IMG/VR virus record: IMGVR_UViG_3300041016_000422
Location: 1 to 44,391 of that record
DNA length: 44,391 nucleotides
Direction: 5' to 3' (one strand)
Origin: a virus
In this document: positions 2,881-40,273 of the stretch, piece by piece
How the letters are laid out: each line of letters opens with the position of its first letter
How positions within the stretch are numbered: the first letter of the stretch is position 1
The notes under the pieces: generated by a model
What the model was told of the DNA's origin: nothing
The model's database searches: none
The model's input: the letters and a program-made list of their open reading frames with translations, nothing else
Program-made: the position numbers and the translations under genes

Positions 2881-2912
2881 GTTGGGTCGGGTATTCCTGG
2901 GCGTTGGGCGGC

Positions 2913-3479
2913 CTAGGTCAACTCCACAATCTCACCCTTTGCCTTGAGGGAAAGGGCCAGCCATGTTGCGGTCATGTCGTCGAGCTGCTTCATCTCCTCT
3001 GGGGGTACCACGAAAGACAGTCTGCCTGCGCCACGGAAGTGCTGGAGTCGGTCCGGTCTGATCACCTCGGCCCGGTTAGCCCAGCCCATGAAGGTCACGG
3101 CTCGGTCATTGTACTCGACTCGCATTAGGACATAGATGTCCACCAATTCCTTGGTGGTAATCTCTCCGTTGATTTCGTAAGACGGCACTAGTAGGTGGGG
3201 GTTGATGTGGTGGCTTGACTTTACCTCCACGGACTGGCCGTTGCCGGCCATGAAGTCAACGGTACCGGACCGGGGTGACACGGTGTCGTCTCGCTCCATG
3301 CTGAACAGCTTGGAGAAGGCGATCTCACCCAGCAGACCGACCAAGTCCATGACGGCACCGGATTGCTTGCCGACGTGCTGGTCTGGGACGCCGGCGGCCC
3401 GGCTCGACTCATGCCTGGCAAGGCTTTCAGCCTCGGCCTGGGTCATGGTGATGTCGTCCAGCTTGATGCGGAGTTTCAC
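2913..3479 (-). CDS. PD-(D/E)XK-like nuclease-fold protein
   Basis: 188 residues. Glu52 (LLGEIAF), Asp75 (TVDFMAG) and Glu85-x-Lys87 (SVEVKSS) are spaced like the E...D...ExK core of restriction-endonuclease-fold proteins. The rest is unfamiliar. I chose the GTG at 3479 because it overlaps the preceding stop as GTGA (3476-3479), a coupling used repeatedly in this genome; an internal ATG twelve codons or so later is the alternative. It sits one gene downstream of a cytosine methyltransferase, so a nuclease acting on unmodified DNA is possible, but a replication or repair role is equally compatible. Confidence 0.6.
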   Translation of the reverse strand: MKLRIKLDDITMTQAEAESLARHESSRAAGVPDQHVGKQSGAVMDLVGLLGEIAFSKLFSMERDDTVSPRSGTVDFMAGNGQSVEVKSSHHINPHLLVPSYEINGEITTKELVDIYVLMRVEYNDRAVTFMGWANRAEVIRPDRLQHFRGAGRLSFVVPPEEMKQLDDMTATWLALSLKAKGEIVELT

Positions 3480-3775
3480 AGGCTTCTGATAAAAATTGGA
3501 GTCTGCTCGCCGACATATGATCCCATGACATTGAAAGACATGTGTTCGATGGCGTCCTCTTCTGACATGCCGTCGGCCATTAAAACACGGACGCAAGTCT
3601 CGTAGTCATAGACCACACGCACGTCGCCGGATTCAGTCAATCCGACGATAGCTGCGTCGAATCCGTCAGCCGTAAGGGTTGTGGTATCGCTTTCCTCGAC
3701 GTATTGTTCAAGGCTCTTGCGGTTTTCTTTGGCCTGCTTCTTGAGCATGGCTTTTTCGGTTTTGTGGATACTCAT
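3476..3775 (-). CDS. Hypothetical small protein
   Basis: 99 residues, starting MSIHKTEKAMLKKQAK, with a charged helical N-terminus and an acidic middle (EESD, MSEEDAIEHM). The family is not recognised. The ATG at 3775 is chosen because it is preceded directly by the CCCAAC leader typical of this operon; the longer upstream frame overlaps the methyltransferase gene and looks spurious. Its TGA overlaps the GTG of the next gene. Confidence 0.65.
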   Translation of the reverse strand: MSIHKTEKAMLKKQAKENRKSLEQYVEESDTTTLTADGFDAAIVGLTESGDVRVVYDYETCVRVLMADGMSEEDAIEHMSFNVMGSYVGEQTPIFIRSL

Positions 3776-3782
3776 GTTGGGA

Positions 3783-4394
3783 TTAAATATTGCTCCATTG
3801 GGAAGCCATTGCGTCAGCAATACCCTGGAAGGTCTTCGACCTGGCCTTCGCACGCTGGGACTGGGGGAGGCATGACGTTTCGTAGAACCAATCGCTCATC
3901 TTCTTTGTCTTCCCGGTCTTCGGGCTGATCCACATCTTATATCCGCCCTTCTCCACGATGTTGGTTGGCTTGAGCAATGGCAGGTTCTTCAGCCAAAGGC
4001 ATGTTGCCTTCGTCGTGCTATGCCCAAACTGCCAAGGGTTAATTACTTGGTCTGGCTTTCTGATCCTTGAACTGATTATCGAAACAGGGTTTTCGATGGC
4101 GATCATATTGATGTTCGCATCCATCATCCTCCTTACGAAATTCAAAGCTTCTTCTTGCCTGCCGTCGGCGATCTTCTTTGCGAAGTGTGCGGCGCCGCTC
4201 ACGGCAAGGTGCGTGCAAGGCGGGTGAGCAATCATCATGTCCCATCCTTGGTCCATGATGTCGAACACGTCACCTTGGTAGTGCGGCCCAGGGACATCGG
4301 TCGGGAGGATATCACAGGACATTGCGTCATGCCCTGCTTTTATGAATGCGTCTCGGACTGTGCCGGAATACTCGCATGCGATTAGTACTTTCAT
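3783..4394 (-). CDS. DNA cytosine-5 methyltransferase-like protein
   Basis: 203 residues. MKVLIACEYSG is a Rossmann-type AdoMet-binding start. HPPCTHLAVSG contains the Pro-Pro-Cys of C5 methyltransferases (Cys60 as the probable nucleophile), and AIENPVS (Glu101-Asn102) fits the ENV-type motif IV. It belongs to the short phage Dcm-like family, smaller than cellular C5 methyltransferases and lacking an obvious long target-recognition domain. It probably modifies phage DNA to evade host restriction. It starts at ATG 4394 with CCCAACACC upstream (4402-4410). The neighbouring PD-(D/E)XK protein may be a functional partner. Confidence 0.75.
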   Translation of the reverse strand: MKVLIACEYSGTVRDAFIKAGHDAMSCDILPTDVPGPHYQGDVFDIMDQGWDMMIAHPPCTHLAVSGAAHFAKKIADGRQEEALNFVRRMMDANINMIAIENPVSIISSRIRKPDQVINPWQFGHSTTKATCLWLKNLPLLKPTNIVEKGGYKMWISPKTGKTKKMSDWFYETSCLPQSQRAKARSKTFQGIADAMASQWSNI

Positions 4395-4413
4395 GTCGGT
4401 TGGTGTTGGGAAA

Positions 4414-5193
4414 TTACCAAGCCCATCCCTTGGGCTGTTCGACCGGGGCGATGACCTGTTCGGTCACGCCGTGGCAACGCTTCTTGTAGTCGCACCACTT
4501 GCACTTAAAGTCATCGACGCCTCGACCGATGCGGCCAAGCTGCTCTGGGTTGTCGGTCTTCACGATCCGCACGGCGCGGTCGATGTACGACTGGGCGTCG
4601 CGAGCGTTGAACGGAACCATTTCAATGTGCAGTTCGCCGGTGTCTCGGTTGATGGCCGTGAACAGGCACGACAGTAGATCCTTGTAAGCCATGTAGACCT
4701 GGACCTGGGCGTAGTACACAGGCTTGGAATCCTTTAGCCCCTTCTTGACCACGTCGCTCCAGCTCTTCTCGCCGAGGGCTTTGCTCTCCCAAAGGCATGG
4801 GTAGAATACGCCGGCCAGGGCAGGGCCGTCGTTAATGATGCCATCAAGATGGCCCTTGAACTTGTCGCCGGCGTCGGAGATGCCGAACTGCTTGCCGTCA
4901 ACCTGGTGGGTCTGAAGATCAAAGCCGGCTAGGATCAGATACTCGGCGACACGCTCTTCGCCGTCATGTCCCATGTCGAAGATGCGCAAGGTGTTGGCCT
5001 TGAATTCCGCTCCTTCGTCCTTCGGCGTCATGTGGAATTCGTACGCAAGGCGACGCTCGCATTCGTCGCCGATGCGTGACGCTCCCAGGTACTGGCGTGG
5101 CACCTGCTTGTTGCGGTGTGCCTTGGTTGCTGCGTCGATCAAGGCTTTCACGCCTTCGGCAATCTCGCAGGGTTTGGTTTCTGGTTTGAACAT
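4414..5193 (-). CDS. Cas4/RecB-like PD-(D/E)XK exonuclease with Fe-S cysteines
   Basis: 259 residues. Nuclease residues are GHLDG (Asp117), LWESKA (Glu136, Lys138) and YYAQVQVYM, the QxxxY-like helix. His76 lies in GHDGEERV. Four cysteines, Cys45 (DECERR) and CKWCDYKKRC (Cys231, 234, 240), match the pattern that binds a 4Fe-4S cluster in Cas4 and AddB nucleases. A role in end resection or recombination fits the surrounding SF2 helicase, Sak4-like ATPase and SSB-like genes. The start is ATG 5193 with CCCAAC directly upstream (5194-5199). No cas genes or CRISPR array are present. Confidence 0.8.
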   Translation of the reverse strand: MFKPETKPCEIAEGVKALIDAATKAHRNKQVPRQYLGASRIGDECERRLAYEFHMTPKDEGAEFKANTLRIFDMGHDGEERVAEYLILAGFDLQTHQVDGKQFGISDAGDKFKGHLDGIINDGPALAGVFYPCLWESKALGEKSWSDVVKKGLKDSKPVYYAQVQVYMAYKDLLSCLFTAINRDTGELHIEMVPFNARDAQSYIDRAVRIVKTDNPEQLGRIGRGVDDFKCKWCDYKKRCHGVTEQVIAPVEQPKGWAW

Positions 5194-5200
5194 GTTGGGA

Positions 5201-6856
5201 TTAAATCGAAAGTACTTTGGCTTTAATAAAACGCTCGCGCCACTTCCATGTTAAAGCACATGTAGCACGGTACTTGGTCATGCCTGCGGCGGAGAATACA
5301 TCAAGCCCAAGCTGGATTAATTGCTTATCGGATGGGGGTTCGGTCAGCCAACGCTTGCTCTTCCGGGCTGCGTCCTTGTCGCCATGCTCACGGAGGTAGT
5401 CGTCTGCGGATGCTACGGCCTGGAGCCGGTCGTCGGTCACGGAGATTAGGGTGGCGCCGGTGGCACCATCCTTGCCGCCGATGGCGTACTGCTTGCCGTC
5501 GTGTTGTAGTACGCAAACCCATGCGGTCATGGCCGATGCAATGGTAACCATGCCGTCCCAGAAAGACTCCCACCGGAAGGGGGACATGTCCATGATCTCT
5601 ACCTCGGTGAGGGTAAAGTTGACTAGGTCGCCACGTTCCTCGGCTTCCTTCTGGCGACGCTCGACGCCGTCAAAGATATGCTCACAGGCTGGGCATACTG
5701 CCACGCCTAGGGGTACTTCCATCTTGCAGGAAGGGCAGACCTTGGTCTTCGCCTCGCCCTTGACCGGCTCCAGCACGACGTCCGTGTCTAGTCCGCCGTG
5801 GGTAAGGATTGAGTAACCAAAGTCTAGGACCACGCAGTCAGACTTAATGGATCCGGGGTGCTTCTCTGGGTCTACCTTGCGTAGCCCACGCCCGATCATT
5901 TGAATCATGGTAGACTTAAATGAGCATGGACGCAGCAGGATAACACAGCTAACCGTCTGGCAGTCATAGCCTTCGGTCAGCACGGCCACGTTGACCAGCA
6001 CCTGGGTGCGGTCCTTCTCAAAGTCAATGAGTGCGCGACGTCGGTCACCGTCTGACAGGTTGCCGTGGACGATATCGGCCTTGATACCGGCGTCGCAGAA
6101 AGCTTGGGTCACATGCTCCGCATGCTCAACGGTTGAGCAGAAAGCTATGGTCTTCCGAGTGCCAGCCTTCTCTCGCCACTCGGCGATGACACGCTCGGTG
6201 ACGGCTGACTTGTCCATGATCGCCTCGACCTCGGCCATGTCGAAGTCGGCAACGGTACGCTTCACGCCGGCCAGTTCGGACCGCAGCCCGCAGTCGATGA
6301 CGAACACCCTAGGGCGGACTAGGTTGCCGGCGTCGATCAGCTCTTTGATGGAGATGACGTCGGCGACGTTGGAGAATACTGCGGCGAGGGCTTTCTTGTC
6401 GGCACGCTGTGGTGTGGCTGTGACGCCGAAGATATGTACCGAAGGGTTGATCTCCCTAGCCCGGTCAATGATGCGGAGGTAGGAATCTGCGGCCACATGG
6501 TGGGCTTCGTCGATGACGAGTAGGTCCACAGGTGGCATGGTGGCTAGGTTCTCATCCCTCGCCAGGGTCTGAACCATAGCAAAGGTGACGCCATCGGACC
6601 AGCGTTTGCGGTCTGCGGCGAATATGTCGGTCGGAGTATCGGCGTCGATCCTCCGGTAGGTGGCTCGGTTCTGGGCGACCAGTTCGTCTCGATGCTGTAG
6701 GACGATGGTCTTGCCTTTGCCTGCATGCTTGATGACGGATGACAGCATGACAGTCTTGCCGGCGCCGGTGGGGGCGACGCCTAGCGTGTTACCCTTTTCC
6801 TTGAGGGCGTAGTTAACCTTGTGAACGAAGTCCACCTGCCTAGGTCGGAGCTTCAT
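5201..6856 (-). CDS. SF2 DEAH-box helicase
   Basis: 551 residues. Motif I is APTGAGKT (about 28-35), motif II DEAH (116-119), motif III TATPQR (146-151) and motif VI QMIGRGLRK (about 319-327). After the helicase core, CPSC...CPAC (Cys374, 377, 388, 391) forms a likely zinc ribbon. This is the ResIII/UvsW-like class that unwinds branched DNA or drives replication restart. The ATG overlaps the stop of the upstream small ORF as ATGA (6853-6856). The zinc-ribbon tail may add DNA binding. Confidence 0.85.
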   Translation of the reverse strand: MKLRPRQVDFVHKVNYALKEKGNTLGVAPTGAGKTVMLSSVIKHAGKGKTIVLQHRDELVAQNRATYRRIDADTPTDIFAADRKRWSDGVTFAMVQTLARDENLATMPPVDLLVIDEAHHVAADSYLRIIDRAREINPSVHIFGVTATPQRADKKALAAVFSNVADVISIKELIDAGNLVRPRVFVIDCGLRSELAGVKRTVADFDMAEVEAIMDKSAVTERVIAEWREKAGTRKTIAFCSTVEHAEHVTQAFCDAGIKADIVHGNLSDGDRRRALIDFEKDRTQVLVNVAVLTEGYDCQTVSCVILLRPCSFKSTMIQMIGRGLRKVDPEKHPGSIKSDCVVLDFGYSILTHGGLDTDVVLEPVKGEAKTKVCPSCKMEVPLGVAVCPACEHIFDGVERRQKEAEERGDLVNFTLTEVEIMDMSPFRWESFWDGMVTIASAMTAWVCVLQHDGKQYAIGGKDGATGATLISVTDDRLQAVASADDYLREHGDKDAARKSKRWLTEPPSDKQLIQLGLDVFSAAGMTKYRATCALTWKWRERFIKAKVLSI

Positions 6857-7053: not shown

Positions 7054-7069
7054 CCTGGATGGTGTCCGA

Positions 7070-7663
7070 TTAGAACGGATTGGAGGAAGACGGAGTCTTC
7101 ACCCAACCCGGAGCAGCCGTCGGGGCAGGGGCGGAGAAGGCCGCAGAGCGAGCCTGTTCCACCACGCCAGACTGGCCGGCAATCAGCTTCTGGAAGTCGC
7201 GGTAGCCACCGGAAGCGGCGTTGGGCGACAGCCATTCGCCGACCTTGTTCTTGTCGGCGTAGGCCGGATCGGTGTTCTTCTCGACCTTGACCTTGATGGC
7301 GACACGCTGGCCGTCCATGAAGTTCATAATGGCGAGAGTTTCCTTGCCGGTGAAAGCCTCGTAGGACTTCGGGTCAGCGACCTTGAAGTGACCGCTGGAC
7401 TCGAAGATGCGGGTGATGGACGTGATGCCCATCTTGCGCCACTTCTCGCCGTTGCGGTCGTCCTGGACGTCGGGGATCATGTCGAAGACCTTACGGCCCT
7501 CATACTCGCCGCCGATGATCGTGAGAGTCACCGGGTAGTAGGTGCCGCCGCTGGTCTTCGACTGCTTGGCACCGCTGACGGTGACCAACGCCCATGCGAG
7601 GGTGCCGTTGGGGATGAGTTCCGGGGCCGAGCCGGCGCCGGAGGTGGGGGAGAACATGCTCAT
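7070..7663 (-). CDS. Probable single-stranded-DNA-binding protein (DUF669-like)
   Basis: 197 residues. A compact N-terminal domain (GTLAWALVTVSG, YYPVTLTIIGGEYEGRKVFD) resembles the OB-like core of phage DUF669-type proteins. An Ala/Pro-rich linker (SAPAPTAAP) and a short tail ending PSSSNPF follow. The layout is like SSBs, although the tail is not acidic. It lies directly downstream of the Sak4-like ATPase, a common pairing in phage recombination modules. The upstream gene ends in codons that spell CCCAACACC about 13 bases before this ATG, which may supply the leader motif. Confidence 0.6.
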   Translation of the reverse strand: MSMFSPTSGAGSAPELIPNGTLAWALVTVSGAKQSKTSGGTYYPVTLTIIGGEYEGRKVFDMIPDVQDDRNGEKWRKMGITSITRIFESSGHFKVADPKSYEAFTGKETLAIMNFMDGQRVAIKVKVEKNTDPAYADKNKVGEWLSPNAASGGYRDFQKLIAGQSGVVEQARSAAFSAPAPTAAPGWVKTPSSSNPF

Positions 7664-7671: not shown

Positions 7672-8541
7672 TTACTTGGTGTTGGGTTTGGGGGTGGAAG
7701 CGGGGATGGTGCGGACGAGGTTGGTATCGACACGCTTACCTTCACGAATCTTTTTGATGAGGGCGCCGAGGTCGGGAGCCTCAAGGATATCAAGGCGACC
7801 GGAGCGGTCCTTGGCGGGGTAACCCCACGGATTCTGCTGCTGGCAGCAGAAGGCACGATACATAGAGCCATCCTCATTCTTGAAGTTCTGAAGGGTGATG
7901 ACCTGGTCGAAGATACCCGGAAGCTCACGGCCAGTCTTGCTGCCCTCGATCTGCGGATTCCAAGACACACGCTTGAGGTCATCGACCTCTTGGTCGAGAA
8001 TGCCAGACAGGATGATAGACTTGCTGCTGTGCTGGAGGTGGGTCAGCCAGCGGATCATCTCTTGGCCGAGCAGTCCGTAGGCACCGCGAGTGTCCGGTTT
8101 GCCTTCACGGTTGAACGTCTCCGGCTGGACCTTGGCCCACTTGAAGCACTCACGACCGGCGACCGTGATGGAGTCGATGAAGATCGTGTCGTACTTGGCA
8201 AGGTCGATGTTGGCGAAGGCCGCCGAGACAGCCTCATGCACAGGCTTGGAGTACGGACCGGTGGCGTCGCTGGGATCGTGGCCGCCGACGTACAGGGCAA
8301 GCGCGCGGGCAATTTCCCACGGATACTTACCGAAGGTCTGGGCGACATCGCGGACGTCGATGACGTCTGCCGGCCAGTCCTGGATGGCGAGGGTGCCGGC
8401 CTCAAGGTCCACGAAGAGCGTGGTCTTGGGGTCGAGGGTGCGAGCCTGCGTGGTCTTGCCGACGCCGGCAGGGCCGAACAGGGCGATGTTGATTTTTGGG
8501 ACCGCTTTGAGGCGGTCGTCGGCCTTGATGATTTTGATCAT
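7672..8541 (-). CDS. Sak4-like RecA-fold ATPase (single-strand annealing/recombination)
   Basis: 289 residues. Walker A is FGPAGVGKTT (about 22-31), Walker B YDTIFIDS (Asp123), and a later SKSIILSG strand follows. This is the AAA_24 / phage nucleotide-binding-protein family, which includes Sak4 recombinases that work with a phage SSB; the neighbour at 7070-7663 fits that partner. The C-terminus has a basic segment followed by a Pro/Asn tail. The start is ATG 8541 with CCCAACAAAAAC upstream. Confidence 0.8.
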   Translation of the reverse strand: MIKIIKADDRLKAVPKINIALFGPAGVGKTTQARTLDPKTTLFVDLEAGTLAIQDWPADVIDVRDVAQTFGKYPWEIARALALYVGGHDPSDATGPYSKPVHEAVSAAFANIDLAKYDTIFIDSITVAGRECFKWAKVQPETFNREGKPDTRGAYGLLGQEMIRWLTHLQHSSKSIILSGILDQEVDDLKRVSWNPQIEGSKTGRELPGIFDQVITLQNFKNEDGSMYRAFCCQQQNPWGYPAKDRSGRLDILEAPDLGALIKKIREGKRVDTNLVRTIPASTPKPNTK

Positions 8542-8561
8542 GTTTTTGTTGGGTTGGGAGA

Positions 8562-9261: not shown

Positions 9262-9270
9262 GGTGTTGGG
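9262..9270 (-). promoter_or_regulatory. CCCAACACC leader motif deciding a GTG start
   Basis: Read leftward, CCCAACACC abuts the GTG of the HTH gene. The same motif precedes many early starts (2881-2886, 3776-3781, 4402-4410, 5194-5199) and most starts in the rightward cluster, and it occurs where a Shine-Dalgarno sequence would be expected. It is used here to choose the start codon. Confidence 0.6.
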
Positions 9271-9288
9271 TCCGATGAGAGGGGTATG

Positions 9289-9311
9289 CCTACTGGGTGT
9301 AGGTGCGTCAA
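9289..9311 (-). promoter_or_regulatory. Leftward early promoter with palindromic operator
   Basis: Read leftward: -35 TTGACG (9311-9306), two bases, then CCTACACCCAGTAGG (9303-9289), then CATACC as a -10-like element (9288-9283) at 17-base spacing. The palindrome fills the spacer, so a bound repressor would block polymerase. The transcript starts the HTH/replication operon. Confidence 0.65.
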
Positions 9312-9347: not shown

Positions 9348-9376
9348 TTGACATCTCCTACACAATGTAGGATACT
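9348..9376 (+). promoter_or_regulatory. Rightward promoter with palindromic operator
   Basis: -35 TTGACA (9348-9353), TCT, then the perfect palindrome CCTACA-CAA-TGTAGG (9357-9371) and a -10-like GATACT (9371-9376) at 17-base spacing. It drives the gene at 9396 and faces away from the leftward promoter, with an A/T-rich stretch between them. Confidence 0.7.
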
Positions 9377-9395
9377 GTTTCCCTTCACCCAACCT

Positions 9396-9605
9396 ATGAA
9401 CATCCAATATATCAAGGCCAGCCTCATCAAGAAGCTCGCCAAGTCCCACGGCAAGCGAGTCTCCAAAGACTTCCTCATCGCCCTCGACGGCTACGTCGAG
9501 AAGAAGATCCTTCTCGCATGCGAGACTCACAACGGCGGCAAGGTGACGCTCGATGGCGGCATTGCCCACCACCTGTTCGTGGGTGGCTTTAAGAAGATTA
9601 AGTAA
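9396..9605 (+). CDS. Small basic protein, candidate histone-fold DNA-binding protein
   Basis: 69 residues, Lys-rich. GKRVSKDFLIALDGYVEKK, a long helix, then GGKVTLDG resembles the central helix and second loop of histone-fold monomers (RVS...long helix...GRKTV). Its size also suits a single histone fold. This is my pattern match, not a proven family. It is transcribed alone from its own operator-controlled promoter, with a CCCAACCT leader. Its stop abuts the stop of the converging holin-like gene at 9606 with no space for a terminator. An alternative is an unrelated small helical protein such as an anti-host factor. Confidence 0.65.
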   Translation: MNIQYIKASLIKKLAKSHGKRVSKDFLIALDGYVEKKILLACETHNGGKVTLDGGIAHHLFVGGFKKIK

Positions 9606-11561: not shown

Positions 11562-11897
11562 CTAGCGCCACTTGCCGCTCCGTAGGAGCAGGCCAATAAC
11601 GCCATAGTTTGCGAGATCGGACCAAGAATCGATAATCGGTTCATTGGTGGCAGCCGGCTCGCCCTTCATCTCCTTGGTGAGGAGATTCCGGATGCGGCTT
11701 ACCTTATCCTGGGTGCGGACCATGACACCCAACTCGCCGTTCAAACTGATATTGCTACTCCCATAGTCCAACTGCTTACGGTCCATAAGCTGGGCTAGGG
11801 GAATAATGGCGCGGAGGTATTCGCGTCCCATTTCAGTCTGTAGGCCGAGATCAGCGTGAAGCTTATCGGCCAGGGCGTCGGTATCAATGTTGGGCAT
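11562..11897 (-). CDS. Nucleotide-modification-associated (Nmad1/DUF1599)-like protein
   Basis: 111 residues. MDRKQLDYGSSNISLNGELG, VRTQDKVSRIRNLL and NEPIIDSWSDLANYG match the small DUF1599/Nmad1 family found in phages and thought to act with base-modification or nucleotide metabolism. The ATG at 11897 is followed at once by CCCAAC-ATT, so the leader motif lies inside the gene if ATG is used. A GTG at 11921 after an upstream segment is an alternative. It ends in TAG, in frame with the HNH-like ORF. Confidence 0.65.
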   Translation of the reverse strand: MPNIDTDALADKLHADLGLQTEMGREYLRAIIPLAQLMDRKQLDYGSSNISLNGELGVMVRTQDKVSRIRNLLTKEMKGEPAATNEPIIDSWSDLANYGVIGLLLRSGKWR

Positions 11898-22772: not shown

Positions 22773-22775
22773 AGA

Positions 22776-23237: not shown

Positions 23238-23241
23238 AAAA

Positions 23242-23862: not shown

Positions 23863-23898
23863 GTTATCGGGGATTCCCTCCAATGTTCAGATCTAGCT

Positions 23899-27213: not shown

Positions 27214-27216
27214 AAA

Positions 27217-27915: not shown

Positions 27916-27918
27916 CGG

Positions 27919-28215: not shown

Positions 28216-28254
28216 CCCTTTATCGTGCCACGGCTTAATCCTGTTGCAAGCAAA

Positions 28255-28286
28255 AGGGGGTGGCTTCCGTTAAGAAACCACCCCCT
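28255..28286 (-). terminator. Strong hairpin terminator after the capsid gene
   Basis: Inverted arms AGGGGGTGG (28255-28263) and CCACCCCCT (28278-28286). Read leftward, the stem is followed by TTTTGC. It lies just past the major capsid stop and probably attenuates transcription into the tail genes, which helps keep capsid transcripts in excess. Confidence 0.75.
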
Positions 28287-28308
28287 GGGTGAGTCTATCG
28301 ACTACCGA

Positions 28309-29352: not shown

Positions 29353-29364
29353 AGGTTTTGTGCG

Positions 29365-30387: not shown

Positions 30388-30418
30388 GAGATTACTATAG
30401 GGTATGATTTATCGGAAA

Positions 30419-32521
30419 TCAACCATTCGGATACTGGACGCCGTTGGCACGGATATCGCTAGGCGAAGCGGGAGCGGTCGGACCGTCTGCACCAGGCGCT
30501 CCTGGAGCTGGAGCGACGTTGGTCGCGCCGGCGCCGCCCTGTAGGTTCGGGTCGGCAGCAGGGTCGCCGGCAGGGGCGAGTTGCTTCTGGGCGTTCATGG
30601 CGACGATGGAAGGCAAGGCAGCACGGATTGCGTCCGTGATGTCCATGCCATCGTCCATACGCTTGAGGGCTTCCTTCGCCATGAATTCTGGATTCATGCC
30701 GGGGATCTGGAGAAGGATGGGAGCGATGCGTTCAAAGTTCTGCATCTGGATCGCCTTGTTGGGGCGACCGTTGGAGCCGGCTTCGACTTCCAGCATCAGC
30801 TCGGAGGCAATCTCATTGATGGCAAGCTGCGGCCAAACGGCGCCAGGGCCGGCAATCTTCATCACCGTTTGCTGGTCCATTTGCTCAAGCAGCACCTGTC
30901 CGGTGGTACGCGCCATTTCGCCAAGGAAGTCTTCAAGGTCGTCCACGTTGGACGACAGGCTGGACATACGGCTGCCTTCGGCAACGGATACTTCCGTGGC
31001 GGTGGATGCGGACGTACCGCCGAGGTTAGCCTCCTGGCTGCCAACCACACGCATCATGTCATCTAGTAGCATGGACGTGTCGTACAGGCTAGGATCGATG
31101 GGGTTGTGTTGGACCGGCTGGAGGATGGAGTTGACGGCCTGCCCAGGCGACAGGTTCTGGAGTTTGATGACAGCGTTGGCCGGGTGGGACTGGAGGTTGG
31201 TGATGTCCTTCTCGGATAATGCACCTTCGTAGGTCGCGTACAGGGGGCGGTTGGCGAACCGATGCTCACGCAAAGCCTGTCGCGCGCGGTTGTATTCACG
31301 CTGGACCGGCATCAACAGACGGACGTCTGAAGGAGGGATGACATCCTTTTCGGATTCAACCTCATTGAAAATCAGAGGGAAGAAAGGCCAGAAGCGTTCC
31401 AGTTCAAGGTGGGGAGGTTCCGGTTCCTTGAGGAAGTCGTGGTAGCCGTCGCACACGACATACAGCATGCCGTCCTTCTTGGAGTAGATTTCCCACACGA
31501 TAGCCTTTTCGCAGTCTCCATCGCCTTCGTTCTTGTCTTCATAGGCCGTGTATTCCTTACCAAGGTCAATCTTGTAGATTTCCTTCACGTCCTCGACATC
31601 GAGGATAAATTCCTGGGCGATCCAGTCAGCGCCTACGAACCCGGACATCTGTCGGCACTTCGGATCGACGATGACCGTGTGGGACATCGGGAAGTCAAAG
31701 ACAACGCCTTCCTTGATAATGACGTCTTGCTTGCTTTGGATGCTCTTGAGGAGCAAACGGAGCTGCTCCATCTTGGCGTGGTCTTCGGAAAACTTCTCGT
31801 CGATGCGGTCAGCGGTCAGACGCTCAAGGGTGGACAACTGCTCCGTGATGTCGGTGATGCGTTCCACATCTTCCGGACGCTTCTCCATCACCCGGTGGTA
31901 GCCAATCTTGACGTAGCCAATTCCGTTCACACAGGTGCGACGGACGAGCTGTTTCATTTGCCCCTTGAAGGACGGCTGTTGTTCCTGGAGTTGGTGGTGG
32001 GCGACAATCTCCATCGTCTTTGCCACGCGATCAAGCATACGGCGACGCTCAAACCCCTGCTGGGCGTCTTGCATTGTTTGCATCATCGTGGGATCCGGTG
32101 GCTGTCCGGTGACAGCCGAATTCTGCATGGCGGTCTGGACGGCCTGGAACGCAGACATGTCGCCTTCCCATGTGGCAAAGTCCAGAGTCTCGCGTCGCTT
32201 GGCGACGAACTTGGGATTCTTGGCGTACAGGGCGGAGACTCGCTGGCCGACGTGACGCTGGACGATGTTAGCGACGTAGCGGTCGTCGTTGTCGTTGGAC
32301 GACCATTGCTTGCCCATGTAGAAGTCCGTGTCTTCCTTCATGCGGTCGAATGACTTCTTCCAATGCTTCTTGGCGTTCTCGACCTTCTTGATGAGGGTCT
32401 TGACGAGCGAGGCGCGAGACGGACCAGGCTTCTCTGCGTCGCGCTTGATGCCGGTCTGCATCGGTTCCGCCGGCTGCATCGGATCTACAGGCATCGCCTC
32501 GCTCTCGTATTCGTTTTCCAT
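30419..32521 (-). CDS. Portal protein
   Basis: 700 residues. KRMKEDTDFYMGKQW-like start region (MKEDTDFYMGKQWSS, RYVANIVQRHVGQRVSALYA, read in parts), central KEYTAYED and IVWEIYSK strands, long helix QREYNRARQALREHRFANR and a Pro/Ala-rich end. It matches large P22-like portal proteins, the dodecameric DNA gate at the head vertex. It lies between the large terminase and scaffold genes. Confidence 0.8.
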   Translation of the reverse strand: MENEYESEAMPVDPMQPAEPMQTGIKRDAEKPGPSRASLVKTLIKKVENAKKHWKKSFDRMKEDTDFYMGKQWSSNDNDDRYVANIVQRHVGQRVSALYAKNPKFVAKRRETLDFATWEGDMSAFQAVQTAMQNSAVTGQPPDPTMMQTMQDAQQGFERRRMLDRVAKTMEIVAHHQLQEQQPSFKGQMKQLVRRTCVNGIGYVKIGYHRVMEKRPEDVERITDITEQLSTLERLTADRIDEKFSEDHAKMEQLRLLLKSIQSKQDVIIKEGVVFDFPMSHTVIVDPKCRQMSGFVGADWIAQEFILDVEDVKEIYKIDLGKEYTAYEDKNEGDGDCEKAIVWEIYSKKDGMLYVVCDGYHDFLKEPEPPHLELERFWPFFPLIFNEVESEKDVIPPSDVRLLMPVQREYNRARQALREHRFANRPLYATYEGALSEKDITNLQSHPANAVIKLQNLSPGQAVNSILQPVQHNPIDPSLYDTSMLLDDMMRVVGSQEANLGGTSASTATEVSVAEGSRMSSLSSNVDDLEDFLGEMARTTGQVLLEQMDQQTVMKIAGPGAVWPQLAINEIASELMLEVEAGSNGRPNKAIQMQNFERIAPILLQIPGMNPEFMAKEALKRMDDGMDITDAIRAALPSIVAMNAQKQLAPAGDPAADPNLQGGAGATNVAPAPGAPGADGPTAPASPSDIRANGVQYPNG

Positions 32522-32536
32522 TTGATGTATTTATGT

Positions 32537-34138
32537 TCAGAAGCCGCCCATCTGCAAGAGATTGCGTCGTGCTTCATCCCACTTGCCGGACAGCTTGACC
32601 CAGGCAAGGGTGCCGCTCTTGGGGACATCTGAAGGCTTTTCGTAGGTTCTGGCAGCACTTACCATAGTACTTAACAGCAGGCCGACCAGACCCATAGCGT
32701 CCACGAAGTCATCGTGTCTGGCAGATGGGAACTTGAGTAGTTCGGTTTCAGCGTCTGCCCACCAGGGGGCGAACTTGGGGAAGAATACCTTGCCCATTGC
32801 CATGCGTCCACGGATCGCCTGCGCGCGGGTCTGCTTGTCCTTAACAGGGGTAATCTCCTCCACGACGGTCCAGATGCCTCGCTCCTGCTGGACCTTACGA
32901 AGGAACGGTCCGATAGACTGGGAGATATGCCCACGCTCCGCTCCCCACTTGGCCGGCTTGTGGCGGGACATTAGGTCGATCATCCCATCGATGACCTGGT
33001 CGGTACTGGCGCGGCGCCACCACACGTCCGGCAAGATCCATACGTTGTCTTCCTCGTCCAGTCCGAATGGCATCAGCACGGTCTTGTCAGCCGTCTGTGC
33101 GGTAGACACGGCATGGTCGGATACGCAGTAGTATCGGAGGTTCTTGGGGATTTCGTGCGGGTAGGGCTTAAGCCAGTCCCTACGGAAGAAGTCGCCGTCG
33201 TCCGGCGTAGGCTTGCCCTGGTACAGGGCCGAGAATCCCTTGGCGTTCAGCCGGCGAATTTCATTCAAAAAGTCCAAGCCATAACGCTCCGGCCATAGGG
33301 CTTGACCCACAGGTCGATCCATAGGGTCGTTCTCAACGGCGATTGCCGGCAATGCCAGGATACGCCAAGCCTGTGCGTTCTCGTCGTTGTAGCAGGGATT
33401 CTTTGGGTCTGTGAGGCGACCCACTAGGTCATCCTCATGCCACCTGGTCATAATGATTACCACCCTGGCGCCGGCCATCAAGCGGGTCATAGCCACTTGA
33501 GTGAACCACTCCCACAGCTTGTCACGCTCACGCTTTGAGTCTGCTTCCTCGCGGTCCTTGATCGGGTCATCGATGACCAGTAGGTCAGCACCACGGCCAG
33601 TAAGGCCGCCACCCACGCCCACGAAGTTGGCTAGTCCGCCTTCCTCGGTCTGGAGCTTGTCGGATGACTGGCTGCCGGTCCGCAGCTTGCAGCCAGGGAA
33701 GACCTGCTTGTAGGCAGGACCGCGCATAATCTCTCTCACCGAGCGTCCGAAGTCCTGCGCCACGTCAGCGTTGTAGGTGGCGAAGATGACCTGTCGGTAT
33801 GGGTCTTTGCCCAGGAACCAGGCAGGGAAGCGGCGTGAAGCCAGTTCGGACTTACCATGTCGAGGCGGCATGGAGATAATCAGACGCTGGTACGTCCCAC
33901 GCTCCACCTGCTCCAGGGCCGCACAGATCGTGGCGTGGTGCTTGACCGGCTGGTAGCGGGACTTGTCTACGTTGTCTGGGTCTTCCGGGTCTGGCATGGT
34001 CATCGACGTGAAGTCGATGAGAGACTCCCTCGCGCGCTTGACGCGGAGAAGCCGGGTAGCAGCCGCCAGTTGCGACTCCACCTCGGCAATCTCGGCCTGC
34101 CTGCGTTTCTCTTCGGCGTTGGTTGCCTTGCGCGCCAT
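32537..34138 (-). CDS. Terminase large subunit
   Basis: 533 residues. ATPase: PPRHGKSELAS (Walker A, 91-100), LLVIDDP (Walker B, Asp190-Asp191), then VVIIMTRWHEDDLVGRL as the coupling region. C-terminal nuclease-like segment follows (YYCVSDHAVS with acidic residues, KWGAERGHISQS, RHDDFVDAMGL). This is the headful-type packaging motor family. Its ATG shares a base with the tail-fibre stop. The small subunit is about 9 kb away (42769-43305). Confidence 0.85.
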   Translation of the reverse strand: MARKATNAEEKRRQAEIAEVESQLAAATRLLRVKRARESLIDFTSMTMPDPEDPDNVDKSRYQPVKHHATICAALEQVERGTYQRLIISMPPRHGKSELASRRFPAWFLGKDPYRQVIFATYNADVAQDFGRSVREIMRGPAYKQVFPGCKLRTGSQSSDKLQTEEGGLANFVGVGGGLTGRGADLLVIDDPIKDREEADSKRERDKLWEWFTQVAMTRLMAGARVVIIMTRWHEDDLVGRLTDPKNPCYNDENAQAWRILALPAIAVENDPMDRPVGQALWPERYGLDFLNEIRRLNAKGFSALYQGKPTPDDGDFFRRDWLKPYPHEIPKNLRYYCVSDHAVSTAQTADKTVLMPFGLDEEDNVWILPDVWWRRASTDQVIDGMIDLMSRHKPAKWGAERGHISQSIGPFLRKVQQERGIWTVVEEITPVKDKQTRAQAIRGRMAMGKVFFPKFAPWWADAETELLKFPSARHDDFVDAMGLVGLLLSTMVSAARTYEKPSDVPKSGTLAWVKLSGKWDEARRNLLQMGGF

Positions 34139-35733
34139 TAAGCGGGGCGGACTGGCATCCAGTATTCTGTGCCACCAATGTTAATTTTAACTTCGTGGGT
34201 ATAGTTTGGGTCACCAGCGGCGTTACCTTGCAAATCCCTAAAGGCTGGTTCCCAATCGCCGTCTATACGAACATAGGATTGCGAGTCAGAAGGTGCTTCG
34301 CCAATACCCTGCTGGTCGTGACTAGAGAGCGGTTCCCAAGTGTTATTAATGCGGATGTATGGGGTGCCGTCGGGTGGAGAATCAGCAATGCCAGTATTGT
34401 CGTAACTAGTGAGCAATTCCCAGTTGCTATTAATGCGGATGTATGGGGTGCCGTCGGATGGTGCGTCGCCAATGCCGCTACTGCCGTCTTGCCCGGGTGG
34501 CCCCGGGTCGCCCTGCGGCCCTTGGCTTCCACCACCGCTGTTCTGGTCGTAGTTAGACATGGGTTCCCAACTGCCGTTGAAACGAACATGGGGTTGCCCG
34601 TCATAAGGGGCGTCGCTAATACCACCACCTCCACCGCCGCTGTTCTGGTCGTATGACGAGAGAGGTTCCCAGTTGTTATTAAGACGAATGTATGGGACGC
34701 CGTCGTAATTTACATCTGGGAAATTGCCTCCGTCGGCACCTGTGTTCCCTTGCGGTCCTGTGTCTCCCTGCGGTCCTTGCGGACCGACCATATTTGCGTC
34801 AGTACCTGCTGGTCCTTGCGGACCAATGTCTCCTTGATCGCCTTTGCTGGCAATCAACTGCCACGATCCAGGATAACCAGTTGGGCTATAACCACCGGCG
34901 CCGATGAAGTTAATCATCACATAGCTTGAACCATTGAGAGTCACATAGTCGTTAGGTGCATAGGTAATGCCACCATCGTATGCACCGCGATACACCCATT
35001 GCTGACCGGCTGCGCCGGCTGGACCTACGTCTCCTTGGATGCCTTGGATGCCTTGGATGCCTTGCTGGCCGTCGTTGCCTGCAACTCCTTGAATCCCCTG
35101 CTGGCCTGTCGCTCCTGCTACTCCGGTATTGCCGATAACTCCTTGGATACCTTGAATACCTTGGATTCCCTGCTGGCCTTGCGGACCGACAGGTCCGACG
35201 ATCAGAGGAATGCTCGCGGCAGCGTCAATGGCGACTTGGGCGTGGACAATGGCGGAGTTTTTCGCCTGCAATGCGGTAATCGAGTAGCCTTGCGCCGTAC
35301 CAGCGTAGCCTTGGGCGAGAATAGCAGAAGATTCTGCGATATCCTTGGCAGCTTCAGCGTCATCTCGCGCTGCAAGAGCGTCGATGGCGTTCTGGGAGGT
35401 AAGAACAACGTTCAAACTAGCCACACCAGCCACGCCAGCGGCGTTAACCAGAGCAACTTGCTGCGCGCCGGCCTGTTGCACAGCGTTTACAGGTCCATCC
35501 GTTAGTAAGTTTTCAACTTCCTCGGCAATGACAGGCAGATTCAGAGCAGTCGTACGGATCTTGCCATCGTCTGCCTGGATTTCACCTAGCCGGGAGATGG
35601 TATCGTTGATCGCCGTGCGAGCGTAGTTCAACTCCTGGTCGATTTTCTGCCCCTGGTGAGGGGTAGTGGGGTTGCTGGTGCTGAAACCTGTAAAGGAGTA
35701 GGAGCGTTCGTAAGGAGCGGGAGGCTGACTCAT
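34138..35733 (-). CDS. Tail fibre with collagen-like and repeated WEP modules
   Basis: 531 residues. N-terminal domain about 1-110 (RSYSFTGFSTSNPTTPHQG) probably binds the virion. A helical stretch follows, then Gly-x-y collagen repeats (about 178-240 and 298-334, QQGIQGIQGIQG). Five tandem modules (about 335-510) share the pattern DG-x-PY-x-R-x-N-x-x-WEPLSSYD. These exposed repeats at the C-terminus are the likely receptor-binding region. It is the first gene of the late block. Confidence 0.75.
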   Translation of the reverse strand: MSQPPAPYERSYSFTGFSTSNPTTPHQGQKIDQELNYARTAINDTISRLGEIQADDGKIRTTALNLPVIAEEVENLLTDGPVNAVQQAGAQQVALVNAAGVAGVASLNVVLTSQNAIDALAARDDAEAAKDIAESSAILAQGYAGTAQGYSITALQAKNSAIVHAQVAIDAAASIPLIVGPVGPQGQQGIQGIQGIQGVIGNTGVAGATGQQGIQGVAGNDGQQGIQGIQGIQGDVGPAGAAGQQWVYRGAYDGGITYAPNDYVTLNGSSYVMINFIGAGGYSPTGYPGSWQLIASKGDQGDIGPQGPAGTDANMVGPQGPQGDTGPQGNTGADGGNFPDVNYDGVPYIRLNNNWEPLSSYDQNSGGGGGGISDAPYDGQPHVRFNGSWEPMSNYDQNSGGGSQGPQGDPGPPGQDGSSGIGDAPSDGTPYIRINSNWELLTSYDNTGIADSPPDGTPYIRINNTWEPLSSHDQQGIGEAPSDSQSYVRIDGDWEPAFRDLQGNAAGDPNYTHEVKINIGGTEYWMPVRPA

Positions 35734-36671: not shown

Positions 36672-36699
36672 CCCTTCCCACACCCAACCCAGCACCACC

Positions 36700-36930
36700 A
36701 TGACCAACCACGCCCACGCCCTCCGCTCCGCCCTGCTCTGGCACGCCAGCCAGGCGGACGCACGCCCCGGACTCGTCTTAACCGACGAGGCTCTGGCCGT
36801 CCTTAACCTCGCCGTCTCGTACCTCTGCGAGATTGACCGCACCACGCCCGCCGAACGCCGCAAGGCCACCCACCGCATGTGCAAGCCGGCGAACCGACTC
36901 CGCAACCTGGCCGCCCTGCTCAACCGCTAA
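36700..36930 (+). CDS. Rightward cluster gene 2, unknown
   Basis: 76 residues, helical, Ala/Leu-rich (LVLTDEALAVLNLAVSYL) with a basic C-terminal half (ERRKATHRM). The start at 36700 is supported by the leader CACCCAACCCAGCACCACC. Not recognised. Confidence 0.6.
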   Translation: MTNHAHALRSALLWHASQADARPGLVLTDEALAVLNLAVSYLCEIDRTTPAERRKATHRMCKPANRLRNLAALLNR

Positions 36931-36982
36931 ACCGCCCAGGACCCACCCACCCAAACCGGATCTTTTCCAACCCAGCACCATC

Positions 36983-37312
36983 ATGTCCAACCCCACCACC
37001 ATCAAGGCCGCCCTGCGGCTCCTCACCGGCCCTGGCTCCCTCACCGACCCCAAACTCGGTTGCCTCGGCGAGGCCGACCTGGCCGCCGTCAACATCCTGC
37101 TCGCCCACCACCGCCAGCAGGCCGACGCCCTCACCCTCCTGCTCGATGTCGCGGGCGACATGGACCACCGCCTCGGCACTCTCGCCGAGTCTGGGGTGTT
37201 CGACCACGACGACGACAATGGCGACGCCATGTGCGAGATGTTCGTGGTGGCTGGCTTTGCAATGGGCCAGGCCCATCGGGCCATCAAGGGCAAGCCAGCC
37301 TTGGCGTCCTAA
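36983..37312 (+). CDS. Rightward cluster gene 3, unknown
   Basis: 109 residues. NPTTIKAALRLLTGPG and LLAHHRQQADALTLLLDVAG are helical; DHDDDNGDAMCEM is acidic. The overall layout echoes gene 2 (an Ala/Leu-rich helix after a short polar start), hinting at paralogy. Leader CCAACCCAGCACCATC before the ATG at 36983. Confidence 0.6.
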   Translation: MSNPTTIKAALRLLTGPGSLTDPKLGCLGEADLAAVNILLAHHRQQADALTLLLDVAGDMDHRLGTLAESGVFDHDDDNGDAMCEMFVVAGFAMGQAHRAIKGKPALAS

Positions 37313-37341
37313 TCCTTTCCACCCAAACCCAGACCACGACC

Positions 37342-37713: not shown

Positions 37714-37751
37714 CTTTGCGCAAACTTTCCACCCACCCAGCACCCAACACC

Positions 37752-38003
37752 ATGCCCCCCATCATCCCCACCGCCGCCGCCATCCAGGCGGCCAACGCCA
37801 GGCTCCGGCCTACCACCCGCTCGGTCAAGGCTCACCCCCTCGTCAGAGATATCTCGGTCGAATCCGACGGCGTCTGGATCTACCTGCACGACGGCTGGTG
37901 CGACCCCGCCACCGACGCAAACGCCATCAGCGAGGACACCCTGGCCGAGGCCATCGCTAACCTCAAGGGTGCGTATTACGACGCCGGCACCCTGGACTCC
38001 TAA
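37752..38003 (+). CDS. Rightward cluster gene 5, unknown
   Basis: 83 residues. DISVESDGVWIYLHDGWCD looks like a small beta-sheet, followed by an acidic helix (ISEDTLAEAIANLKG). Not recognised. Leader CACCCAACACC before the ATG at 37752. A GATCTAAA repeat follows the stop. Confidence 0.6.
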   Translation: MPPIIPTAAAIQAANARLRPTTRSVKAHPLVRDISVESDGVWIYLHDGWCDPATDANAISEDTLAEAIANLKGAYYDAGTLDS

Positions 38004-38045
38004 CCCTCCGCCTCTGATCTAAATCCAGCTCGCACAAAAAAAACC

Positions 38046-38074
38046 TCGACAACCCTCCACCCTGTAGGACATAC
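38046..38074 (+). promoter_or_regulatory. Rightward promoter with operator, before gene 6
   Basis: TCGACA (38046-38051), AC, palindrome CCTCCA-CCC-TGTAGG (38054-38068, one mismatch), then ACATAC (38069-38074). Same architecture as the 9348 promoter. Confidence 0.6.
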
Positions 38075-38098
38075 CTCCCTTACCCAACACCCAGCACC

Positions 38099-38536
38099 AT
38101 GAAAAAAACCAAAGCCAGCACCACCACCCACGCCGTCCTCGTCCGCTTCCTCATCGATAGGTACGAAGACACCGGCAGGGGATACATGAACGCCACCGAC
38201 GCCCTCGCCAACGCCAGGGAATACCTCGACACCCTCATCGCCAAGCCCGCCACGCACCGAGGCCAGAAGAGCCTCGCCGGCATGGCCGACAGGTTCGACA
38301 TCATCGACCAGTCCATCGAGGACAACGGCGAAGAGTGCGACGGCGAAGACATTGGCCGATGGACCTGCTCGTTTGAGGTCATCGCCAGGTTCGTCGTCGA
38401 TGCCGACGACGCCCAGCGTGCCGAGAAGCAGGTCATGCGGACCATCGAGGACGCCATCGAGGATGTCATCGGCGACAGCGTCGAGGAGTGGGCATGCAAT
38501 TGGTCCACCGACATTCTCCGCAACGCCACCCGCTAA
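38099..38536 (+). CDS. Rightward cluster gene 6, unknown
   Basis: 145 residues. Starts MKKTKASTTTHAVLVRFLID, with TWTCSFEVIARFVVDADDA-like beta strands (WTCSFEVIARFVVDADD) and acidic helices (MRTIEDAIEDVIGD). No family recognised. It is the first gene after an operator-controlled promoter (38046-38074), with leader CCCAACACCCAGCACC. Confidence 0.65.
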   Translation: MKKTKASTTTHAVLVRFLIDRYEDTGRGYMNATDALANAREYLDTLIAKPATHRGQKSLAGMADRFDIIDQSIEDNGEECDGEDIGRWTCSFEVIARFVVDADDAQRAEKQVMRTIEDAIEDVIGDSVEEWACNWSTDILRNATR

Positions 38537-38557
38537 CCCCTCACCAACCCCAGCACC

Positions 38558-38884
38558 ATGAACACCACCCCCACCACCATGTCCCCCCACCAGCACGCCG
38601 CCGCCAAGGCGGAGGTCGCCGCCCTCCGGGCCATCAACACGCCGGCGTCCAACGCTACGGCAGACGGCATCGCCGCCAGCATCGCCCAGTCCAACGCCGC
38701 CGAGCGTGCCATGCTCCAGGCTCACCTCACCCTGTGCCAGCGTCGAGTGCTGGACGCCGACCGGTACGGATCTATCGCCCAGCGTGAAGAGGCAGAGGGT
38801 TGCCGGCAGGAAGCGATGGCATGCCTCGTCGCATTCAACCTCCGCACCATCCGCATGGTGCCTGTCACCCATGTCCGAATCTGA
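38558..38884 (+). CDS. Rightward cluster gene 7, unknown
   Basis: 108 residues, Ala-rich and helical throughout (HQHAAAKAEVAALRAIN, AERAMLQAHLTLCQRRVLD), ending in a short beta-like tail (TIRMVPVTHVRI). Probably a helical-bundle or coiled-coil protein. Leader CCCCAGCACC before the ATG at 38558; a second ATG eight codons in is possible. The stop overlaps a GATCTAAAC repeat. Confidence 0.6.
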   Translation: MNTTPTTMSPHQHAAAKAEVAALRAINTPASNATADGIAASIAQSNAAERAMLQAHLTLCQRRVLDADRYGSIAQREEAEGCRQEAMACLVAFNLRTIRMVPVTHVRI

Positions 38885-38915
38885 TCTAAACTTGCGCAAA
38901 CTTTATCCCAACACC

Positions 38916-39323
38916 ATGAGCAAACCCAAGCCAGTCAACGCCCTCGCCGACCGCCTCGCCACCCTGCTGGTCGAGGTACTCAACCACCCCAAGACCGAGG
39001 CCATCCTGGCCGAGTCAGCCCTAGCGGCCTACCATGACAGCGGTTGCGAGGCACGCCACGCCGGCGACCTGGCATGCATGCTGGCCCTGCTTGGCCGCCA
39101 TGTGTGCGACGCCGCCGAGGGGGACATGGAGGAGATGTCGAAACATTACGCCGGCGAGGCGGAGCATGCCGACCACGGCGACGACTTTGAACACTCGCCG
39201 GCGGAGTGCGAGCAGTACGCCAAGGAGTACGCCAAGGCCCGCAAGGTTTACGACAAGGCAGGCCAGGCATTCACCCGCATCACCGGCGACATGGCCGTGG
39301 GCCTTAAGGCCGCCGGCATCTGA
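38916..39323 (+). CDS. Rightward cluster gene 8, unknown
   Basis: 135 residues: helical N-half (LADRLATLLVEVLNHPKTEA), His/Glu/Asp-rich middle (GEAEHADHGDDFEHSPAEC), then a basic helix (YAKEYAKARKVYDKAGQAF). The His/Asp-rich middle could bind metal. Leader TATCCCAACACC; the stop overlaps a GATCTAAAC repeat. Confidence 0.6.
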   Translation: MSKPKPVNALADRLATLLVEVLNHPKTEAILAESALAAYHDSGCEARHAGDLACMLALLGRHVCDAAEGDMEEMSKHYAGEAEHADHGDDFEHSPAECEQYAKEYAKARKVYDKAGQAFTRITGDMAVGLKAAGI

Positions 39324-39347
39324 TCTAAACGCCCAAGCTTTTTCCCC

Positions 39348-39467
39348 ATGTCCACCATCCGCACCATCCTCTTCGCCCTCATGCTGGCGGCCCTCATTGC
39401 TTTCGCCCTGTGGGCGTTTGCCACCGGCCCCAGCCTGCTGGAAATTATCGATAACCCTAAACTCTAA
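39348..39467 (+). CDS. Rightward cluster gene 9, single-pass membrane peptide
   Basis: 39 residues. TILFALMLAALIAFALWAF is a clear membrane helix with a short polar N-terminus (MSTIR) and tail (LLEIIDNPKL). The leader is TTTTTCCCC. Early phage peptides of this type often act on host membranes, but function is not shown. It is directly followed by the next operator promoter. Confidence 0.55.
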   Translation: MSTIRTILFALMLAALIAFALWAFATGPSLLEIIDNPKL

Positions 39468-39470
39468 ACC

Positions 39471-39498
39471 TTGACACCCTCCAATCTGTAGGCATCCC
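39471..39498 (+). promoter_or_regulatory. Rightward promoter with operator, before gene 10
   Basis: TTGACA (39471-39476), C, palindrome CCTCCA-ATC-TGTAGG (39478-39492, one mismatch), then CATCCC. It is the fourth copy of the promoter/operator design. Confidence 0.6.
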
Positions 39499-39513
39499 TT
39501 CCTATCCCATCCC

Positions 39514-39897
39514 ATGAGCAAACGCACCCGCACCCCCCAGCCCGACGCCACTCTCGCCGCCCTCCAGGCCGCCGAGCGGGACGCCGACATCATCGCATCC
39601 AACACCTTCGCCGTCGCATCCGAGGCGGCCCAGCGGACCGGCGACCTGCGTCGCAAGGTCATCGAGCAGAAGGAAAAGGTCGCCGCCCTTAACGCTCGGT
39701 GCAACGGCACCGGCTACGCATGCGATGTCGATGACGCCGTCGATGCCGAGCGTCGCCTCGCCGAATTGCAGGCGGCTTTCGCCGCCTCCGAAAAGGAAAC
39801 GATGGAGGCGAGTGATAAGTGGCGCCCCGCCCAGCGTGCCGCCAACGCCATTGCCGCCGCCGTTGAAGCTTACCGCACCACGGCCAAGCAGATCTAA
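39514..39897 (+). CDS. Rightward cluster gene 10, coiled-coil protein
   Basis: 127 residues. LAALQAAERDADIIASNTF and RRKVIEQKEKVAALNARC are followed by VDAERRLAELQAAFAASEKE: heptad-like, Ala/Glu/Lys-rich helices that suggest a coiled coil with a Cys-containing turn (CNGTGYACDVDD). Leader CTATCCCATCCC. Not recognised. Confidence 0.6.
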   Translation: MSKRTRTPQPDATLAALQAAERDADIIASNTFAVASEAAQRTGDLRRKVIEQKEKVAALNARCNGTGYACDVDDAVDAERRLAELQAAFAASEKETMEASDKWRPAQRAANAIAAAVEAYRTTAKQI

Positions 39898-39916
39898 ACC
39901 CTCACCACCTACCACC

Positions 39917-40252
39917 ATGCCCGACACCACCACCATCGCCCTCGTCTTCCATGTCGGTCGAGACGACGGCCTGCCTTGCACCTGCGACGACTTCTATATG
40001 CTCGACTCTCACCTCGGCGACGACGGCGATTGCCTGTCCCTTGAGGGCGGACGATTCATCGTCGCCGACACCCGCTGGTCTACCCCGGAAGTCATCGGCA
40101 CCCGACTCGTCGTCGAGTTTGAAGCCGATGTCGAACCCTGGGAGGGCGACGACATGTCGCCTGCCGAGCTTTGCAATAAGGTTCACGACGCCGCCATCCT
40201 GCACATGCCGGACTTCCTCGTCGTCGAAGACCTGCGTGCTACCATTGCCTAA
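39917..40252 (+). CDS. Rightward cluster gene 11, acidic protein
   Basis: 111 residues, strongly acidic (GRDDGLPCTCDDFYMLDSHL, VEFEADVEPWEGDDM). A DNA-mimic role is conceivable for so acidic a small early protein, but no motif proves it. Leader CACCACCTACCACC before the ATG at 39917. Confidence 0.6.
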   Translation: MPDTTTIALVFHVGRDDGLPCTCDDFYMLDSHLGDDGDCLSLEGGRFIVADTRWSTPEVIGTRLVVEFEADVEPWEGDDMSPAELCNKVHDAAILHMPDFLVVEDLRATIA

Positions 40253-40273
40253 CCCTAACCCATACCCAACACC

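Follow-up and report, generated by a model that had tools for sequence, protein, structure and literature searches.

A C/A-rich, nearly G-free leader bearing CCCAA/CCCAG units at the early genes of a phage clade: a probable translation start region independent of Shine-Dalgarno sequences

The window, i.e., the whole 44,391-nt stretch analyzed here (virus record IMGVR_UViG_3300041016_000422; 44.4 kb), carries short C/A-rich leaders just upstream of replication-type genes and of a cluster of plus-strand genes (the plus cluster). The hexamer CCCAAC is one form of this broader element, which is nearly free of G and contains CCCAA/CCCAG units, frequently as tandems. With a probability of roughly 0.6, we consider the leader to be a translation initiation region of the S1 or standby type that works independently of a Shine-Dalgarno (SD) sequence and is suited to an SD-poor host. 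The window encodes a terminase, a portal, a major head protein and a collagen-like fibre, as well as a primase/helicase-type ATPase, a Cas4-like exonuclease, an AAA_24 protein and a methyltransferase; scans of the window returned no tRNA and no Rfam match. Relatives of the phage are uncultured viral contigs, and the closest isolates, one phage of Microcystis and one of Rhizobium, share 45 to 50% terminase identity with it. Gene starts are predictions throughout, the early and late classes were assigned from gene function, and genes in the approximately 200 related viral loci used for comparison were predicted without use of the motif.

A sequence-only reading had proposed CCCAAC(ACC) as a leader that replaces SD sequences at early genes only. 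All 12 starts that it named carry CCCAAC in the sense direction, 0 to 11 nt 5′ of the start codon (Table 1). The hexamer immediately adjoins the start codon at 2880, 3775 and 5193, takes the form CCCAACACC at 9261 (GTG), 37752, 38916 and 40274 and the form CCCAACCT at 9396 (plus strand), and lies approximately 6 to 11 nt before the start codon at 8541, 4394, 38099 and 36700. Two further CCCAAC leaders were found at 402 and 44154 (minus strand). Near variants (CCCAGC) precede 36983 and 38558, and the replication-side and plus-cluster starts at 3479, 6856, 7663, 9008, 36216, 37342, 39348, 39514 and 39917 have no CCCAAC. The window holds 38 copies of CCCAAC, 18 of which lie in the sense strand within 30 nt upstream of starts, a density of 12.0/kb compared with 0.25/kb in coding sense and 0.15/kb in coding antisense sequence. 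Among the hand-set early and plus-cluster leaders, 12 of 22 contained CCCAAC versus 3.0 expected from dinucleotide shuffles (0 of 2,000 shuffles were as high), and none of the six late leaders with any intergenic space contained it. Whole-window shuffles gave a weaker contrast (38 observed versus 26.7), the signal being a positional one.

A DNA-level origin of this pattern, in binding sites or promoter parts that recur before each early gene, is very improbable. Promoter-like pairs could be read by eye just upstream of some leaders (9396 and near 38099 and 39514), as such a DNA-level signal would lead one to expect. The motif is nevertheless strand specific and start linked even in operons whose 7-nt gaps are motif only, and antisense copies are at background. 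At gene 9396..9605 the motif lies 3′ of the promoter-like pair (TTGACA-17-GATACT, upstream of CCCAACCT) and is therefore in the transcript. The RNA-level translation signal that had been suggested was borne out as a strand-specific, start-linked element standing in place of an SD sequence; ribosome recruitment, the involvement of bS1 and the identity of the host are further steps that we infer.

The same distribution was seen in the related loci (leaders of 6 to 60 nt), where CCCAAC occurred in 63 of 159 replication-type leaders (20.9 in shuffles; maximum, 35), 16 of 39 plus-cluster leaders (6.3 in shuffles) and 1 of 106 late leaders (1.2 in shuffles). Shuffled controls preserve dinucleotides and not phylogeny, and raw family counts are inflated by related sequences; the thinned and window-only figures are therefore more trustworthy. 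After similar leaders were thinned, 37 of 95 replication-type leaders still carried CCCAAC versus 1 of 66 late leaders (P = 2e-9), in agreement with the claim that late structural genes lack it. Neither at late genes nor in shuffled sequence did CCCAAC reach its early-leader frequency, the equality that the sequence-only reading had set against itself. Its claim that the pattern is not base composition also held. Early-type and plus-cluster leaders are 43 to 53% C, 29 to 37% A and 5 to 9% G, as they would be if phage intergenic DNA merely happened to be C/A rich and G poor, but dinucleotide-preserving shuffles of the leaders contain two- to fourfold fewer CCCAAC, the leaders have positional preferences (A-3, A-6 and C-1), and late leaders differ in composition. 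Composition alone is insufficient because the counts exceed those of dinucleotide-shuffled leaders, and we judge that explanation improbable.

The proposed unit, CCCAAC(ACC), needed revision: the unit is a C/A leader depleted of G that combines CCCAA/CCCAG with A-3, A-6 and C-1, and CCCAAC is a recurring form of it. The most enriched leader words included CCCAA, TCTCCC, ACCCA[AG], CCCAGC and the tandem CCAACCCA. Among single-base variants of CCCAAC, CCCAGC was clearly enriched and CCCCAC was depleted. CCCAAC terminates 0 to 18 nt upstream of the start codon, and distances of 0 and 3 nt stand out as peaks. In far members of the clade (AAA_24 identity, 60 to 73%) the word becomes CCCAAA, frequently in tandem, and CCCAA units and tandems exceeded shuffles in the near and far clade alike. 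Thinned early and plus-cluster leaders have a Kozak-like context (A-3, 57%; A-6, 57%; C-1, 73%), which is retained in leaders without CCCAAC (50%, 59% and 66%, respectively). Among ortholog leaders, the exact hexamer comes and goes and the C/A style stays. Predicted folding from −30 to +20 was very weak at early starts (gap, 6 to 60 nt; mean, −3.7 kcal/mol) and in the plus cluster (−1.2 kcal/mol) compared with coding sequence (−12.4 kcal/mol) and late genes (−7 to −9 kcal/mol).

SD-like 4-mers were present at 8% of early-type starts and 2% of plus-cluster starts, and SD-like words at 3 to 18% of starts in the clade of the window phage. Early and plus-cluster leaders do not have the purine-rich word approximately 5 to 10 nt before the start that marks SD-led initiation, and pairing of early leaders with the anti-SD gave no gain (−2.1 versus −2.8 for shuffled anti-SD). 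Leaderless mRNAs are argued against by the 7- to 38-nt intergenic leaders of CCCAAC genes within gene runs. The leader might instead pair with a GUUGGG-containing part of 16S rRNA, either helix 26 (GGUGUUGGG, in some phyla) or a AUGUUGGGUU segment (in several 16S genes examined). The complementarity is exact, CCCAGC, the most enriched clearly supported variant, still pairs via a G-U wobble, and the GUUGGG region tops all windows of one 16S rRNA against the leaders relative to shuffles. That scan is circular, however, because CCCAAC was known beforehand, and the chance base rate is high because most 16S genes examined hold some GUUGGG. Other wobble-compatible variants gave mixed results, and at a spacing of 0 to 3 nt the word would lie in the mRNA channel, where pairing is unlikely. 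We therefore regard 16S pairing as quite improbable.

In relatives with less than 60% identity, 48% of starts had SD-like words and CCCAAC was absent. Because these distant relatives look SD using and are without the hexamer, the CCCAAC element belongs to this phage clade. With growing distance, CCCAAC frequency ran 46, 44, 30, 10, 14 and 0%, a trend that serves as a guide and not as a measured tree because the bins mix early and late leaders, the most distant bin uses different markers and some bins are small.

The early/late class difference is real in sequence and is partly gene layout. Ten of 15 late window starts overlap the previous stop or follow it with a gap of at most 3 nt; most late starts thus have no leader able to hold the signal. 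The split by time class that the sequence-only reading described is present, then, but abutting late genes account for part of it. Late leaders, where present, are A rich with 16% G, near the composition of phage P8625 (KP792622; host, a Verrucomicrobiota strain).

In the explanation that we favor, 30S subunits of an SD-poor host would land on a single-stranded C/A leader with no need for rRNA pairing, by means of single-strand binding of the bS1 type and a Kozak-like start context, and CCCAAC would be the recurring sequence form of such leaders in this clade. Replication-type genes, each in need of an efficient start of its own, may for that reason bear the strong version, and late structural genes, mostly starting at or over the previous stop, would probably be translated by coupling and do without the element. 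Initiation in Flavobacterium, which is without SD sequences, and in E. coli is promoted by A-3/A-6 and low structure (PMC6847099), and ACA or CA-rich stretches act as translation enhancers whose spacing is not strict (PMC3879156). The phage leaders combine the A-3/A-6 and weak predicted structure at the start that mark the Bacteroidota-type Kozak-like context with the C/A richness and tolerant spacing near the start (0 to 18 nt) of CA-rich enhancers. SD-independent initiation regions of Flavobacterium johnsoniae (PMC6847099) likewise have no SD, low structure and A-3/A-6 but are A/U rich, whereas the phage leaders are C rich, with recurring CCCAA/CCCAG, are concentrated at replication-type genes and serve a host not known as Bacteroidota. 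The CA-rich/ACA enhancers of GcvB targets (PMC3879156) are similarly C/A rich, spacing tolerant, often repeated and adjacent to the initiation site; they enhance SD-containing enteric sites, in contrast to the phage leaders, which have no SD and a CCCAA unit. Verrucophage P8625, compared by its leaders, shares SD poverty, G depletion and A-3 but is A rich, and none of its ATG codons has CCCAAC within 18 nt.

Several results weigh against this explanation. Low G, weak structure and a Kozak-like context alone do not predict CCCAA/CCCAG at two- to threefold above dinucleotide-shuffled leaders, nor do they predict the total absence of the word from late leaders with space. The Opitutaceae TAV5 plasmid has few SD sequences but no clear C/A-rich leaders, and CCCAACACCATG was barely enriched in 149 Planctomycetota genomes (approximately 69 matches, no more than 4 of them in any one genome, versus approximately 39 for the reversed control).

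Because the words exceed composition, specific recognition by a protein keeps some probability. A dedicated early-gene translation code is unlikely but worth keeping in view: a specific RNA-binding factor, of phage or host, or else rRNA would recognize tandem CCCAA/CCCAG so that early messages are prioritized or later shut off in an SD-free host. Such a code, if real, would amount to a non-SD, sequence-specific signal that recruits ribosomes and has a time class. Rather unlikely, in our judgment, is that a specific RNA-binding protein, of phage or host, uses the units as operators and switches early mRNAs on or off as a group in the manner of T4 RegA. Operators would fit the enrichment of whole words above dinucleotide expectation, the restriction of the units to replication-type and plus-cluster genes even when only genes with leaders are compared, and the tandem arrangement, which suits multivalent binding. 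RegA sites are likewise at or just 5′ of the AUG of many early messages and unstructured (PMC3014915), but they are A+U rich and have a known repressor; none is known for the phage leaders, and a candidate regulator was not found. The exact word is also lost and regained among orthologous leaders with the C/A style constant, and its distance from the AUG varies.

We guess that the host is a member of the Verrucomicrobiota. Part of the basis is the freshwater (lake) origin of the record, which we assume from IMG sample numbers. The guess also draws on P8625, which has SD sequences at 7 of 52 starts, A-rich leaders and A-3 at 55%, and on the scarcity of SD sequences in some Verrucomicrobia (PMC10783764). 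In scans of genome contigs for a host, the AAA_24 protein gave no matches and terminase alignment gave only distant ones (53% at best). Host-like usage of CCCAACACCATG was found neither in the Planctomycetota genomes nor in 30 others, and a whole-collection scan with CCCAACCCAACACCATG returned four loci of this phage family and one unrelated provirus, with the match inside a coding frame. A distant relative (L132; primase, 54%) carries seven tRNA genes at 2544-3190, a possible host clue.

Table 1. Leaders with the C/A-rich element, and the late block, in the window
Feature	Coordinates	Strand	Remarks
Leader of primase/helicase-type gene 616..2880	2881..2912	-	CCCAAC at 2881-2886 and 2903-2908; AAA_25 domain
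Leader TCCCAAC of gene 3476..3775	3776..3782	-	7-nt intergenic gap, all motif
Leader TTTCCCAACACCAACCGAC of DNA methyltransferase-like gene 3783..4394	4395..4413	-	phrog_757
Leader TCCCAAC (7 nt) of Cas4-like exonuclease gene 4414..5193	5194..5200	-	
Leader TCTCCCAACCCAACAAAAAC, tandem CCCAAC, of AAA_24 gene 7672..8541	8542..8561	-	Ortholog leaders compared
Leader with terminal CCCAACACC, GTG-start small gene at 9261	9262..9291	-	GTG and CCCAACACC kept in close relatives
5′ region of gene 9396..9605	9366..9395	+	CCCAACCT adjoining ATG (9388-9393)
Leader with CCCAACCCGAC, ATG at 402	403..432	-	Gene runs off contig
Leader CCCTTCCCACACCCAACCCAGCACCACC of gene 36700..36930	36672..36699	+	
Leader with near variant CCAACCCAGCACCATC of gene 36983..37312	36931..36982	+	
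Leader with CCCAGCACCCAACACC of gene 37752..38003	37714..37751	+	
Intergenic region with CCCAACACCCAGCACC, gene 38099..38536	38004..38098	+	CCCAAC kept in 7/7 distinct ortholog leaders
Leader CCCCTCACCAACCCCAGCACC (near variant) of gene 38558..38884	38537..38557	+	
Leader with TTATCCCAACACC of gene 38916..39323	38885..38915	+	
Leader CCCTAACCCATACCCAACACC of gene 40274..40792	40253..40273	+	
Leader with CCCAACCCACCGAC, ATG at 44154	44155..44184	-	Diverged second copy of 402 gene region
Late structural block without the element	11944..35733	-	Starts adjoin previous stops or follow ordinary A-rich leaders

The contig ends that hold the leaders at 402 and 44154 (1-636 and 43780-44391) are direct copies, 76% identical over 608 bp and nearly identical over the final ~60 bases; they represent either two copies of a gene that have diverged or two strains joined in assembly. 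In the plus cluster, GATCTAAAC recurs where genes end and TTGCGCAAACTTT in the gaps between them (37998-40830, plus strand). Gene 9396..9605 (plus strand) encodes a 69-aa protein (MNIQYIKASLIKKLAKSHGKRVSKDFLIALDGYVEKKI...) judged by eye to resemble histone-fold proteins. A virion-block protein of 2,807 aa (11944-20367) is matched by other phage records, among them the unverified phage zth2-2, in its middle segment only (about 1170-1630).

Around the ATG at the start of gene 11562..11897 (minus strand) lies a strong inverted repeat (AATGTTGGG...CCCAACATT; 11880-11945), with −28.9 kcal/mol as RNA, kept in part of the family with its inner stems changed. Its constant upstream TTGAC and −10-like loop suggest either a promoter whose operator is symmetric or, in read-through RNA, a hairpin that hides the start. 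Early leaders pair well with a GU-rich arm before 11897 (−21.9 versus −18.2 for shuffled), and an antisense role was considered; it was set aside because promoter-like −35 and −10 boxes flank the arm and the strong hairpin to which it belongs is conserved in only some members of the family. A long near-perfect hairpin, possibly a terminator, lies between genes 7070..7663 and 5201..6856 (CGTCCCTTGAT..AAGATGCTGACA...TGTCAGCATCTT..ATCAAGGGACG; 6990-7062, minus strand). Just 5′ of the start of gene 29365..30387, a CCCTATAGTA-like motif (30388-30418, minus strand) is conserved in close and distant relatives and resembles a −10 box near the start codon.

The C/A start signal is apparently an SD-free way of starting protein synthesis and has no exact known counterpart. 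Start selection by ribosomes in bacteria without SD sequences is still an open question. This clade, in which a short C/A word is concentrated at the replication genes, can be set against distant relatives that look SD using and offers a natural comparison, along with compact parts for reporters. Gene finders trained on SD sequences may misplace starts in such phages.

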